From a virus: a DNA stretch of 38,906 bases. Below the pieces are notes generated by a model. It had not been told where the DNA came from. It saw only the letters and a program-made list of their open reading frames with translations, and made no database searches. The stretch is from IMG/VR virus record IMGVR_UViG_3300020595_000077, positions 1 through 38,906 of that record. One strand, given 5' to 3'. This document shows, piece by piece, positions 164 to 38,906 of the stretch. The translations under genes and the position numbers were made by a program. Within the stretch, counting starts at the first letter, position 1. Each line of letters opens with the position of its first letter.

Positions 164-900
164 ATGCCTGAGTTTTGTGTTGGACCTGAATGCTTGGACT
201 TGGATGGCCCCACCTAACGACACTTATGACAGGTTAGCGCATGGTCCTTAAACCTTTACCGTGCCTGGTATCGATTGATATTAATGACTGCTGAGATGGG
301 TATAGCAACTTGGTAGTGGATATCTCTTGGCATATACACATCAACACATTCAAAACCATCAAACCAAGCAGAGAACCGCATAGGCAACCTGAGAGGCAGC
401 ACCCCCACCCCCAACTTCGGGGCAGTGGTTGCACTAGGATAACCACCCCATACACCGGAGCTATTTTTGGAACCTGATCAGCTAAAAGACCAGCAATATC
501 ATATAGTTGTATGCGAATTTAGGTCTTAGTAGTACCAGATTTGGGACTAGGTGTCGTATATTTGTAGCGTAAGGTATTGTTTTAGAAGGGAATAGACGTA
601 ACTAGGTGCAGAAGTGCAAGGTAGTATTAGGTTCTGAAGGATAAAAGAACCCCAGTAAAGACCTATAACAGATCTAAACTTGGTTCCTTTTACCCTTAGT
701 CGCATTTAGGACTTCGGATAGTCTGCAATTAACGCTTTATGCAAACTCGACTGCCTTCTACTAGCGTGTAGTCCACCCCCTGTTCAGTCTTTAGAACTCA
801 GATGCGCCGTGGGGTATCTTTTTGCGCTTTAAGTCTTGAGCGGTGAGGGAGGCTTTCGCCGGACATATCCTTCAAGACCGAGACCACTATGTACGCTATT
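164..900 (+). ncRNA. Candidate large structured non-coding RNA
   Basis: No reading frame here has a ribosome site, start and length like the neighbouring genes, in a genome that is otherwise packed with genes. Many short complementary segments are visible: 182-186/243-247 enclosing 214-218/233-237; 261-265/329-333; 384-389/427-432 enclosing 409-412/419-422; a competing hairpin 419-430/441-449; 486-491/522-527; 521-527/658-664; 630-635/646-651; 698-702/748-752 enclosing 710-713/720-723; 758-761/768-771; 782-785/794-797; 804-807/824-827; and 833-839/872-878 enclosing 841-846/856-861. The octamer ACTAGGTG occurs at 546 and 601. Size and place in a phage recall the large ornate RNAs GOLLD and ROOL, but I cannot match the sequence to either. 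The strand is inferred from the flanking terminator and downstream late genes. Boundaries are approximate. It could instead be a long leader of the late operon. Confidence 0.45.
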
Positions 901-927
901 GCATATAAAGATATATTTCTCTATATA
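899..927 (+). promoter_or_regulatory. Candidate sigma70 promoter for the late operon
   Basis: TTGCAT (899-904) and TATATA (922-927) are separated by 17 bases in a very A+T-rich stretch. It points toward the late operon that begins at 1157. A second, similar arrangement lies near 1008-1036 (TTGCTA, 17 bases, TATATA), so the exact start is uncertain. Such matches are common in A+T-rich DNA. Confidence 0.35.
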
Positions 928-938
928 AACTTTACTAA

Positions 939-946
939 GTGATCAC
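939..946. promoter_or_regulatory. Palindrome GTGATCAC, possible operator
   Basis: A perfect 8-base palindrome lies about 12 bases after the -10 box of the candidate promoter at 899-927, where a repressor could block initiation. No regulator can be assigned to it. Confidence 0.25.
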
Positions 947-1073
947 GATAAGTATACATTAACCTTTAGTAACCTGCATCTAAATTGTCATTTTTTTAGC
1001 GTTTTTTATTGCTATTTTGCATCTTTTTTGCTATATATTTTACAGCTCCGATTTTAGTCCCTATACTGTCTTG

Positions 1074-2744: not shown

Positions 2745-5252
2745 ATGGCTTTAATTACTGATCTAATTACAAGAAAGCAAAGAAATACAATAGATCATAG
2801 CCGAGTTGCTTGTTTTTGCGATACCAGCTCACCTAATGCGCTTGCTCAATGTCAGGCGTATTATGCTGCCTATCCAGACTTAAATCCAAACCTTATATTT
2901 CAGTATGACTTATCTACTGCTGGCGCTAAAACAAGAGAGACTGCTTGGGAATTATGGGGAAAAGACTGGCACGATTTTATTGTGTCAAATAACATAGAAG
3001 GAATTTGCTGCAATCCAGAGTTTGATATTGACTCACCTCTATGGCCTGGGTATAGCGCTTTAAACGTATTGGGCGACATACTATCTTTAAGAAGAAGTAT
3101 GTTAGTAATAAACCCACCAACTCCAGATGTTTTTAAATCTATTAGCCCAAGAGTTTCACCAACACCTTATAGTAATTCACAATACCCATATCAATTTGTT
3201 GGCTGGTACAATTTTGGCGGAATAAGACAAGATGGCCCCTTTCCTCCGCCTAACCCTTTTGTTCCTGAGTCTATAATTTCGGCTGAAGGAGATAACGCTT
3301 ACGATTATACGATAACTGGAGTTGTTCCAGAAAACAAGAAATGGGATTATAGTGGAGGAATGCTTTCTGGGGAATGGGATTTTTCCAGAGATTATTTAGG
3401 GCAAAAAGTTATATATATTCCTACATGGCGGATAGGGTGGAAATCTGGCTCCCTGAACCCTTCAGAAATAACTACAGCAGAAATAACTGCTATGGTTGAA
3501 AGATCTAAATCTACAAAAGGAAGCATAAGCTCTAATATAGATAAACCAATAGTTACCAGCTCAAGACAAAGAGTTTCTAACAGATATTTTATTGGTCAGG
3601 CTATGTTTACAGATACTATATTTAAAGACTTAGGCTTTACAGATGTAAAATGGGGCTATTCTAAAGATCAAAGCGGAGTAAGTATATTAAACTCTTACAA
3701 CACTAAGTTAAACACTAACAACTACGATCCAGATGAAACATCAAATACAAATGTACAGTTTACACTTGACAATATTGCTGGTACGGTTGGCAATCAGTAC
3801 AGAGATTTAGGTCCAAACTATTTAGTAGAAGATAACTATAAATGGCACGCTCATAATACAAATACATTTCCTATGCCAGTGTTTACCTATGTAGGTGGGT
3901 GCTTAGTAAATATGAGTGTAAACACAAATGGTTCATGGTGCGATGGTGGAGCAGATGCTGTCTTTGATATACAAGATGGAGCTGTTTTGTTTGAAATGAC
4001 ATCTCATTTCTTGCAGTATGCTGGATGGGCTATAAAAAATGGAGCCTCAGCAGTTCATGGGTCTTATGTAGAGCCTTTCGCTCCACAGGTAAATAGCGGT
4101 GGAAACTTTGCATCAAATTTATTAAAAGGAAATCAGGTAGCAACTTCTGCTGTTTTTGGTATGTCTTCAACACCAAAAAATATAGAAGTTTGGGGGGACG
4201 GGTTAGCCGCTCCGTACTATTACGAATCAACAGAAGAAGAAGGTACAATGGAACATAAAAAAGCAATTACAATAGCTACAGCAACCCCAAATGACATAGC
4301 CGCAACAACAAAAGACACATTTGGTTATTATGGATTTGGTAGTACAAACCCTTACGCACAACGAGGAGGCGGCTCAGGAAGCGGAAGAAAATATAACTTC
4401 CTCTGGCTTCCTCCAGCATCTCCTAATGTTGGAACAATTTATAGTGCTAGGGGGGTTATATCTACAACCAGTATGTTCTTAGACTATGAGGCTGTTGCTG
4501 GAGATACTCAAGAAGATGTTGTTGACGGCATTCTTGCAAGCACTTATAACAACTCTGCCGAACTAGAAAATACGTTCTATTTTGAAAAGGTTATTGGCCC
4601 ATCAGGAGGGGATTACGCTGGGCAATTTGGGATTCAAATTTCAGGAGCGGCAGAATATTTCTGGTCAGGAGCAATGAATCAAACCTTTGGTGTAGGAACT
4701 GTAAACCCCACAGGATGGCTTGCTTCTGGAGTTGAATGGCCAAAAGGTAAAGATATAGCTGGAGTAGACACGCTAGATAATTATTATGATAAAAATGGAA
4801 ATATAGCGTTTCAGTTTGGCGTTGTCAATATAGCTTCGGCTGACAGGATGTGGTTTGTAGATGATACAACTGGATGGCCAAATGATACTGTTACAGGATT
4901 TATGCTTACAGGTATTGATGCAACTGACGCAGCTTCAGTTATTTCACAATATGAAGGAACAACACCTAAAATTGAAAAAATAACATTTAAAAATATTAGC
5001 TCACCAGGAGCAGGAATTGCAGATATTGTTTTAACAAGAGAAGACTTTTTGCCGTATGTATCTCAATATTCTATTTACCTGTTAGCCCCATTAAGCGGGG
5101 TTAATGGAGCTGCTTATAGAGCCCTACCATTTATTGCAAATAATAATTATGAGGCAACAATTGAGTTTTCTGCTTCAGACTTAGGATTTTCTAGCGGAGC
5201 AAATAAGTCAGTTATCTCACGATCAGTAATTTCACACAACACAGAATCATAA
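2745..5252 (+). CDS. Large fibre or spike-like protein with TIGR03790-like N-terminal region
   Basis: The product has 835 residues. Residues about 18-100 (an RVACFCDTSSPNAL start, then AYYAAYPDLNPNLI) and about 400-500 (GAVLFEMTSHFLQYAGW, GASAVHGSYVEPF, VWGDGLAAPYY) resemble the beginning and end of the TIGR03790 family of bacterial proteins of unknown function. The remaining C-terminal 330 residues are Gly-, Asn- and Thr-rich with many short strands, as in receptor-binding fibres. The position between the lysis cassette and the terminase genes, and the length, fit a tail fibre or spike. No signal peptide or chaperone motif is visible. Base use is more A+T-rich than in the capsid genes, with many AGA and ATA codons, which suggests separate ancestry. 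The start has only a weak ribosome site. Confidence 0.65.
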   Translation: MALITDLITRKQRNTIDHSRVACFCDTSSPNALAQCQAYYAAYPDLNPNLIFQYDLSTAGAKTRETAWELWGKDWHDFIVSNNIEGICCNPEFDIDSPLWPGYSALNVLGDILSLRRSMLVINPPTPDVFKSISPRVSPTPYSNSQYPYQFVGWYNFGGIRQDGPFPPPNPFVPESIISAEGDNAYDYTITGVVPENKKWDYSGGMLSGEWDFSRDYLGQKVIYIPTWRIGWKSGSLNPSEITTAEITAMVERSKSTKGSISSNIDKPIVTSSRQRVSNRYFIGQAMFTDTIFKDLGFTDVKWGYSKDQSGVSILNSYNTKLNTNNYDPDETSNTNVQFTLDNIAGTVGNQYRDLGPNYLVEDNYKWHAHNTNTFPMPVFTYVGGCLVNMSVNTNGSWCDGGADAVFDIQDGAVLFEMTSHFLQYAGWAIKNGASAVHGSYVEPFAPQVNSGGNFASNLLKGNQVATSAVFGMSSTPKNIEVWGDGLAAPYYYESTEEEGTMEHKKAITIATATPNDIAATTKDTFGYYGFGSTNPYAQRGGGSGSGRKYNFLWLPPASPNVGTIYSARGVISTTSMFLDYEAVAGDTQEDVVDGILASTYNNSAELENTFYFEKVIGPSGGDYAGQFGIQISGAAEYFWSGAMNQTFGVGTVNPTGWLASGVEWPKGKDIAGVDTLDNYYDKNGNIAFQFGVVNIASADRMWFVDDTTGWPNDTVTGFMLTGIDATDAASVISQYEGTTPKIEKITFKNISSPGAGIADIVLTREDFLPYVSQYSIYLLAPLSGVNGAAYRALPFIANNNYEATIEFSASDLGFSSGANKSVISRSVISHNTES

Positions 5253-30359: not shown

Positions 30360-30733
30360 TGTCAAAGCTTAATCACGCCAAGGAAGTAAAGGCTAGAAAA
30401 GGTCACACTAGAAGTTGGGTGGCATTATGCCCAGCACACGATGACAAAAGCCCCTCACTTTGTATCGATGAGGCAGACAATGGCAAAATTTTAATCAAGT
30501 GTTGGTCTGGATGTGGTGCCAATGAAGTTATTGATAGCGTTGGGATGAAGTATCACGAGTTATTTCCTGATGATGGGTACGAATGTCACATTAAACGCAG
30601 GATAAAACCCGTTGGTTATCACGAATTGCATTTAGATATAGTACAAAGCAGGAGAGAAAAAGGTTTGAAGCAGACAAAAGAAGATAAGAACGATGAACTA
30701 GCATCGTTTATGGCGCTGAGAGGCTCTGTATGA
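30341..30733 (+). CDS. Stand-alone CHC2 primase zinc domain protein
   Basis: The 130-residue protein has ALCPAHDDKSPSL and IKCWSGCGA: Cys30, His33, Cys54 and Cys58 form the CHC2 zinc site by which DnaG-type primases read the template. The catalytic TOPRIM part is absent; the C-terminal 50 residues are basic and helical. It might guide host primase or act with the helicase at 31379. AAGGAG precedes the start, which overlaps the Cro-like gene. Lack of the catalytic domain is not due to a frameshift, because the next gene begins in an overlapping ATGA and is unrelated. Confidence 0.82.
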   Translation: MSADKLVSKLNHAKEVKARKGHTRSWVALCPAHDDKSPSLCIDEADNGKILIKCWSGCGANEVIDSVGMKYHELFPDDGYECHIKRRIKPVGYHELHLDIVQSRREKGLKQTKEDKNDELASFMALRGSV

Positions 30734-31368
30734 GCGCACAGGCGACATTCTGGGCTTGGGGTATACAAGTGCCTTCCTCTGAGAAGTTAGTGCTTTTATG
30801 CCTATCAGATTGTCATAATGGTGATACAAGCCAGTGTAATCCTAGTGTGAATTACATCGCTAAGAAAACATCGCTAGATAGAAAAACTGTATTGAAAGCT
30901 TTACGGCTTTTAGATGAGAAAGAATTACTCAGCAGGATCAAAGTTGAGGGTTCTAGTAATCAGTATTTTCTAGCTATAGGGGGTAGTCCGTTAACGGTAC
31001 TTGGGCATACCCAAATTTCCCCAAAAGCAGTACCAAATATGGGACACAAACCTATAAGTAAACCTAAAAAGAACCTACACTACGAAAATGGTGATCTTGA
31101 AACAGCAGAAACGATCTACAATTTGATCTTAACTTTGAATCCAAAGCATCGAAAACCAGCTATGGAATCTTGGGCTAATGAGATCAGGTTGATGAGAGAA
31201 AAAGATAACTGCACTCATAGCGAGATACTAAGTTTATTTAGGTTTGCCAATAGCGATGATTTTTGGAAGTCAAACATCCTGAGTCCAAAGAAATTAAGGG
31301 ATAAGTGGGATGTATTAACAATCAAGAAAGGCGATAGTAGACAGCAAGAACCATCAATATGGGTTTAA
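30730..31368 (+). CDS. Replication initiator, O-like
   Basis: The 212-residue protein has an N-terminal winged helix: VPSSEKLVLLCLSDC, then CNPSVNYIAKKTSLDRKTVLKALRLL (in two pieces about residues 35-62), as in phage O and related replication proteins. A Pro/Lys-rich linker (about residues 88-118) follows, then a helical C-terminal domain that in relatives binds the helicase or its loader. The gene overlaps the zinc-domain gene (ATGA) and precedes a helicase gene. The linker-coding DNA carries palindromes, as lambda ori lies within gene O. Confidence 0.78.
   Translation: MSAQATFWAWGIQVPSSEKLVLLCLSDCHNGDTSQCNPSVNYIAKKTSLDRKTVLKALRLLDEKELLSRIKVEGSSNQYFLAIGGSPLTVLGHTQISPKAVPNMGHKPISKPKKNLHYENGDLETAETIYNLILTLNPKHRKPAMESWANEIRLMREKDNCTHSEILSLFRFANSDDFWKSNILSPKKLRDKWDVLTIKKGDSRQQEPSIWV
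30988..31034. other. Candidate replication origin inside the initiator gene
   Basis: Within 47 bases lie the perfect palindrome CCGTTAACGG (30988-30997), the inverted repeat TTGGG-CATA-CCCAA (31001-31014) and an enclosing GGTAC (30996-31000)/GTACC (31030-31034). TACCCAAAT and TACCAAAT may be two iteron-like units. A+T-rich DNA follows to about 31100. The location in the linker of an O-like gene is that of the origin in lambdoid phages. No test was possible. Confidence 0.45.
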
Positions 31369-31378
31369 GGAGAGAGAA

Positions 31379-32311
31379 ATGCAAAAGATTGATATTACGG
31401 ATAAAGAGTTACTAGGTTTTATTGGGAAGCAAGAGAGTCAAGAAATTGGCGCATTTAATTCCTATGGCGATAGGTTACTAAAACAGTTGGAGGGTGGCAG
31501 TGGTTTGGTTGGCGATAAACTGCCTTGGTCAAAGACTCATAGCGCTGTGAGGCTAGGGCAGGGCCAGCTATCAATATGGTCAGGAATCAATGGTCACGGC
31601 AAGACACTTTTGCTGAGTAATGTTTTTACTTATTTAATGGCCAGAGGTCGCAGGTGTTTGGTAGCGTCAATGGAGATGAAGCCAGAAGAAACATTACAAT
31701 GGATGTGCTCACAAGCAGCAGGCTGCTCACCATCAAGAGATTTTGCGCTAGGTTGGTTGGAGAGAATGAAAGAGGTAGGACACATTTATGATTGTTTAGA
31801 TAAAGTTCCACAGGAGCGTGTACTGGGCCTTGTGCACTATGCTGGGCAAGAGCTTGACATCAACCACTTAGCGATAGATAGTCTAACAATGTGCGGCGTT
31901 GGTCGTGAAGACTACACAGCTCAAGGTGAGTTTGTTAACCAGTTGAGAGCAGCCGCTAAAATGTACAACATGCATATTCATTTAGTGTGCCACATGCGTA
32001 AAGGTTCAGATGAGAATGAGCAGGTCGGTAAATTTAGTATTCGAGGTGCCGGTGAAATATCTGATTTAGCGGATAAGGTTTTTGTAGTGTTTAGAAATAA
32101 GGCTAGAGAGAAAGCTATGGCGTTAAAAGATAATAATTTTGCCTTCGATGAAAAGTTTTTAAATCAGCCGGATGTTTATCTTAAATTAGTTAAAAACCGG
32201 CAAGATGGGACAGAGTTAGATTTTGGGTTATACTTTCATAAAGATAGTATGCAATTTACAAGCAAAGAAGGTAAGGCTATGCCTTTAGAGGGGAATGTAA
32301 GTGATTACTAA
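31379..32311 (+). CDS. Replicative helicase, RecA-fold (DnaB/Twinkle type)
   Basis: The 310-residue protein has Walker A GINGHGKT at residues 69-76, a SMEMKPEE element at about 97-104 as in DnaB H1a, Walker B LAIDSL at 164-169, and a His-containing strand VCHMRKGS near 206 matching motif H3. It lacks the N-terminal primase-binding domain of DnaB, so it is a bare motor. It would form a hexamer and unwind DNA at the fork. AAGGAGAGAG precedes the start. The neighbours, O-like initiator and zinc domain, complete a small replication set that depends on host polymerase. Confidence 0.88.
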   Translation: MQKIDITDKELLGFIGKQESQEIGAFNSYGDRLLKQLEGGSGLVGDKLPWSKTHSAVRLGQGQLSIWSGINGHGKTLLLSNVFTYLMARGRRCLVASMEMKPEETLQWMCSQAAGCSPSRDFALGWLERMKEVGHIYDCLDKVPQERVLGLVHYAGQELDINHLAIDSLTMCGVGREDYTAQGEFVNQLRAAAKMYNMHIHLVCHMRKGSDENEQVGKFSIRGAGEISDLADKVFVVFRNKAREKAMALKDNNFAFDEKFLNQPDVYLKLVKNRQDGTELDFGLYFHKDSMQFTSKEGKAMPLEGNVSDY

Positions 32312-38752: not shown

Positions 38753-38887
38753 ATGGCAACCAAGAACGAAGATCTGGAACTTGAACCGTTCAGCATGGGA
38801 AGCTTCGCGGAGATCATTGGTTCTATGTTTATAGCTGGCAGCGTGCTACTGGTGTTTGTAGCCTATATTGATGGCCGTCTATTCTAG
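38753..38887 (+). CDS. Small single-span membrane protein, 44 residues
   Basis: From ATG 38753 the product is acidic at first (NEDLELEPFSMG) and ends in a hydrophobic segment (residues about 24-38, FIAGSVLLVFVAYID), so a C-terminal anchor. No ribosome site precedes the ATG. The AAGGAG at 38697-38702 lies eight bases before an in-frame CTG at 38711, which would add 14 mostly polar and basic residues. The gene is copied in part at 1-117, and its terminator is at 139-163 on the circle. Confidence 0.6.
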   Translation: MATKNEDLELEPFSMGSFAEIIGSMFIAGSVLLVFVAYIDGRLF

Positions 38888-38906
38888 CTTTAACCCAGTC
38901 ACTACC
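38771..38906. repeat. Terminal direct repeat, right copy
   Basis: This copy equals bases 1-136 except for three positions near its ends (38774, 38899, 38900). See the left copy. Confidence 0.9.

Follow-up and report, generated by a model that had tools for sequence, protein, structure and literature searches.

The stretch of DNA analysed here (hereafter the window) is a virus record from IMG/VR, 38,906 bases long, that represents a marine phage genome. Its ends, 1-136 and 38771-38906, overlap over 136 bases with 97.8% identity and three mismatches, which makes the record either circular or terminally redundant. The gene plan is lambda-like, with an early side that includes an O-like initiator, a DnaB-like helicase, ERF and NinG, and a late side with holin, terminase and portal, the terminase distantly resembling those of Vibrio phages; the late region is headed by an 835-aa protein (2745-5252) that has no PHROGs match. 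A preliminary description of this DNA had reported 164-900 to be free of genes, and this is borne out over 164-1156, where the sole open reading frame of at least 60 aa is a 73-aa GTG frame on the minus strand (234-455). Across the region the relatives differ by indels of 1, 2, 5, 7, 11 and 13 bases, so it is non-coding and holds no conserved reading frame.

The preliminary description had also suggested a giant structured RNA in 164-900, with stems drawn on the plus strand. A structured RNA does appear to be encoded here, but its helices lie elsewhere and on the minus strand, and the conserved element spans about 400-945 (Table 1), so that the right edge had been set too short. The segment 164-399 is alignable only with one relative (L015), folds like shuffled sequence (z -0.02) and is outside the conserved RNA. 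Relatives were first gathered by scanning with two proteins encoded to the right of the region, and pattern scans raised the set to 33 uncultivated viral contigs, window included, across which the RNA can be aligned end to end. DNA identity over 400-891 is 77-94% in full-length relatives, and the 5' domain is 81-98% identical among the viral contigs. Conservation sets in sharply on the left at ACCCCCACCCCCAACTT (401-417), sequence beyond this G-tract is not conserved, and the closely conserved core stops at GACCGAG (876-882). In two contigs, L104 and L093, identity of the 5' domain is still 89%, against no more than 55-58% for the protein of the adjacent holin, which suggests either strong constraint on the RNA or its movement between phages. 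The RNA is missing from several relatives that have the same holin and a similar record length, and it is therefore not essential to the wider group. No relatives were found in cultured phages or plasmids. Further pattern matches in viral contigs (L114-L119, L122-L144, L155-L163) and in the genomes L121 and L154 were judged to be chance; that in L158 sits inside a 1301-aa frame.

Table 1. Features of the proposed RNA gene in the window, with the paired segments of each helix in brackets.
Feature	Position	Strand	Remarks
-10 box TATACT of RNA promoter	951..956	-	sigma-70-like; just upstream of covarying P0
RNA gene, about 545 nt	400..945	-	5' end near 945; 3' conservation boundary near 400; based on end-to-end alignment in 33 viral contigs, wobble pairs and distant homolog L120
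P0, 5'-terminal hairpin	882..944 (938-944 with 882-888)	-	stem sequence varies by clade, pairing kept
P1	797..882 (880-882 with 797-799)	-	invariant, hence without covariation evidence; not clearly present in L120
P2	832..879 (872-879 with 832-839)	-	834/877 covary; most pairs have other letters in L120
P3	851..860 (858-860 with 851-853)	-	covarying; GNRA loop in most members
P4	804..827 (824-827 with 804-807)	-	covarying 805/826
Pseudoknot	775..815 (ACCYC 811-815 with GRGGU 775-779)	-	crosses P4 and P5; covarying 778/812
P5	749..789 (785-789 with 749-753)	-	covarying 750/788
P6	758..771 (768-771 with 758-761)	-	4/4 pairs change on both sides
P7	720..747 (740-747 with 720-727)	-	6/8 pairs change on both sides
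P8, long interrupted stem	638..696 (682-696 with 638-652; inner 654-661 with 673-680)	-	remade in L120
Conserved 3' element GCUCCGGURUAUGGGGUGGWUAU	438..461	-	from the alignment
G-tract AAGUUGGGGGUGGGGGU	401..417	-	3' edge of conservation; altered in L020, L094 and L104; absent from L120

Compensatory changes among the relatives support nine helices, one of them a pseudoknot. In the 5' domain (20 distinct sequences, 40 pairs), 98.8% of the 800 cells are paired and 15 of the 40 pairs show change on both sides, in 83 cells; none of 500 shuffles matched either the pairing or the two-sided-change figure, and pairing fell to 31-39% when partners were slid by 1-3 columns. A wrong register served as the control for the pseudoknot. 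Under a tree-preserving null, nine of 85 candidate pairs were significant, and these come from five helices together with the pseudoknot and the inner segment of P8. This null was our own script after the idea of R-scape, which replays the substitutions of the tree, here a shallow one, at random columns. The restricted set of candidate pairs was used because an unrestricted scan was dominated by the tree: its top pairs included two that are unable to pair (640/717 and 642/719), so that tree signal is strong there and power limited. At P0, the variants GAUCA/UGAUC, GAUU/AAUC and GCAA/UUGC replace one another, with AGCUAAA/UUUAGCU in L120; the hairpin is present in nearly all of 29 loci and was not seen in L104 or L093. 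The fold of the variable middle (470-620) is without support. In two relatives, L005 (about 187-275) and L101, insertions flank the same spot of this middle, equivalent to window 567-596 (21 and 32 bases in L005, 10 and 10 in L101), and although not clearly complementary they look as if a stem there were lengthening.

The assignment to the minus strand comes from the wobble pairs. Candidate helices obtained with plus-strand rules were rich in A-C mismatches, which are G-U pairs on the other strand; in the final model there are 745 Watson-Crick, 45 G-U, 10 other and no A-C cells on the minus strand, and the same 45 cells would read as A-C on the plus strand. A plus-strand structure was therefore rejected and the minus strand taken as the RNA strand. 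Under minus-strand rules P7 is paired in 99% of cells, and RNAalifold, run on the minus-strand alignment with no structure supplied, recovered the main helices. An initial helix search with plus-strand rules and strict pairing had missed the best hairpin and found no excess of multi-pair helices over the null. A strand reading from wobble pairs can overturn a first impression. The stems drawn on the plus strand in the preliminary description are paired in fewer cells among relatives (36% for 419-430/441-449, 43% for 486-491/522-527, 76% for 384-389/427-432 and 79% for 521-527/658-664) than the minus-strand helices, at 92-100%; these four stems are not conserved, and the competing pairs proposed there are rejected as well. 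Of the three refuting conditions set by that description, folding energy counted against it and a coding frame did not, while compensatory changes do occur in relatives, at pairs other than those it proposed. Folding energy is unexceptional for the region overall: 164-900 on the plus strand is less stable than shuffled sequence (z +1.4, with 19 of 20 shuffles equal or better), and on the minus strand single-sequence folding of the 5' domain gives z from -3.4 to -0.9, with several full-length values near 0. Minimum free energy gave little signal in most members, whichever strand was folded, and was not counted for or against the structure.

A distant homolog among genome contigs, L120, provided an independent test. 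It is a 7.75-kb phage-like contig with a phage-type endolysin and a ribonucleotide reductase, and it was binned with a Bacteroidetes genome, which is no proof of host. The 5' domain of L120 shares 60% identity with that of the window. An nhmmer profile built without it finds it at E 5e-24, and the covariance model R1, built with L120 included, scores it at 124 bits (E about 1e-40). Within L120, P2, P3, P4, P6 and P7 re-form with different letters, P8 also re-forms and the pseudoknot is kept; folded by itself, L120 gives z -3.2 for the RNA strand versus -1.35 for the other. Among 395 genomes of the same phylum, a search returned only L120 itself and one weak partial match.

The surroundings of the RNA would fit a transcription unit of its own. 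A TATACT, TATAAT or TAAACT box lies immediately upstream of the RNA on the minus strand in 29 of 29 loci examined, and the most divergent members have -35 boxes at the exact spot (TTGTAA-17-TATAAT in L094, TTGACA-18-TAAACT in L120); a clear -35 box was not found in most other loci. No consistent terminator was found among relatives, and T-runs seen by eye beyond the G-tract in several of them suggest that termination may occur within about 100 nt. To the right of the RNA there is always a rightward operon, divergent from it, whose first gene varies, and to the left the genes are unrelated between loci and lie on either strand. With such variable neighbours and a constant divergent operon, the RNA looks like a gene of its own.

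To our knowledge, only a handful of bacterial or phage RNAs of such size and complexity are known. The solved structures of GOLLD, ROOL and OLE are RNA-only assemblies, and the purpose of GOLLD and ROOL is not known. ColE1 RNA II, which is a replication primer, is likewise structured, about 550 nt long and G-rich near its working end, and the present RNA is set beside it by description, not by sequence. GOLLD (RF02032) resembles the present RNA in being large, non-coding and phage-borne, in combining a strongly conserved region with a variable one, and in its occurrence in aquatic metagenomes; however, GOLLD conserves its 3' region and varies in the 5' part, whereas here the 5' domain is conserved, and many GOLLDs exceed 800 nt as against about 545 nt (PMC12286853). 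ROOL (RF03087) is phage-borne, of similar length and pseudoknotted, with no known protein partner (PMC12286853). Expression of GOLLD rises in lytic growth and it forms an RNA nanocage, ROOL forms a homo-oligomeric cage and is found in phages and prophages, and both often lie near tRNA islands (PMC12286853). In contrast, a tRNA search found none in the window or in twelve related loci, and the GOLLD and ROOL covariance models give no match.

The preliminary description had guessed at GOLLD, ROOL or a new class, and the latter is the better half of that guess. Descent from GOLLD, ROOL or some other Rfam family, with divergence past recognition, would account for its size, phage location, pseudoknot and single more conserved domain, but we regard this as highly improbable: cmscan against Rfam at E<=10, with the window and three diverse members (L094, L104 and L120), returned only chance-level microRNA, CRISPR-repeat and leader models, direct searches for GOLLD and ROOL were empty in seven records, that for ROOL being run without a positive control so that the result for ROOL rests on cmscan, and tRNA is absent nearby. 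The literature that was searched contained no description of this RNA. A primer like ColE1 RNA II, in which a persistent R-loop formed by the 3' G-tract would be cleaved to provide the primer for DNA synthesis, is suggested by the length and by the G-rich 3' boundary (GGGGGUGGGGGU), beyond which conservation ends. This, too, is improbable, as an O-like initiator and a DnaB-like helicase are encoded by the phage itself far off at 30730-32311, GC skew in the window tracks gene direction with no origin signal found at the RNA locus, and the intact G5-U-G5 has been altered in three members (L020, L094, L104) and is missing from L120.

Another possibility is that the RNA acts in cis, controlling the late operon or the left-hand genes as a leader or antisense partner. 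Its place is always next to the late operon, the promoters of the two being divergent, the two -35 boxes of L094 overlap, and leftward genes follow the RNA in many relatives. We nevertheless consider such control unlikely, since the late operon is transcribed away from the RNA, the nearest downstream gene is in the opposite orientation in the window, L015, L093 and L104, which leaves no common gene to lead, and a pseudoknotted RNA of 545 nt exceeds what the spacing of promoters needs. A conserved DNA element, such as a packaging or recombination site, would suit a region that holds a promoter pair and sits at the junction of gene blocks; however, wobble pairs on one strand and the remade stems of L120 are expected of RNA and not of double-stranded DNA, and this explanation is hardly credible.

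We hypothesise that the locus is a gene in its own right for a large, structured RNA that acts in trans, and we hold this to be likely. The data show the conservation, the non-coding character, the strand, the fold of the 5' domain and promoter-like boxes in a constant position, whereas transcription in the cell, the precise ends and action in trans are inferred. Host RNA polymerase would start leftward near 945 from the sigma-70-like promoter, placed back to back with the late promoter, which points rightward, and produce an untranslated transcript of about 545 nt. This would fold into a 5' hairpin, a closely conserved pseudoknotted domain P1-P7 of about 170 nt and the long stem P8, followed by the variable middle and, at the 3' end, a conserved G-rich segment, and in the infected cell it may act in trans as a folded RNA or an RNA-protein particle, and not as the leader of a neighbouring gene; this step is modelled on how GOLLD and ROOL are thought to work. 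It is best read as a new class of large phage RNA, possibly similar to GOLLD and ROOL in its working but neither of them. We lean, with some reserve, towards a class unrelated by descent to GOLLD, ROOL and OLE, present in two or more clearly distinct groups of phages, that would build during infection a machine of RNA, or of RNA and protein, around a pseudoknotted core. With promoter, strand, fold and a distant relative in hand, such an additional, independent class would be a test case for the uses that phages make of large RNAs.

Other conserved elements flank the RNA. A motif GGATATCYC-N5-ATATACACATC occurs once in the window, at 318-343, and is kept in relatives 60-120 bases to the left of the RNA, with no conservation of the intervening sequence; it could be a promoter or operator. 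On the right, the late-operon promoter TTTACA-17-TATACT (1039-1067, plus strand) stands back to back with that of the RNA, and two hairpins (GTCGG..CCGAC and GCYTCYC..GGGAGGC) are conserved after it in nearly all relatives, promoter and hairpins together lying in 1024-1145 on the plus strand. The layout may recall the put antiterminator RNA of phage HK022 (PMC9378689). In many relatives a fixed motif, GCTGCTCGCATTCGCTCGCAGATAGGA, directly follows the late leader, and in the window a 124-aa gene (1157-1531) appears inserted between the leader and this motif (about 1508-1534); the genes that open the late operon have the look of a cassette site.
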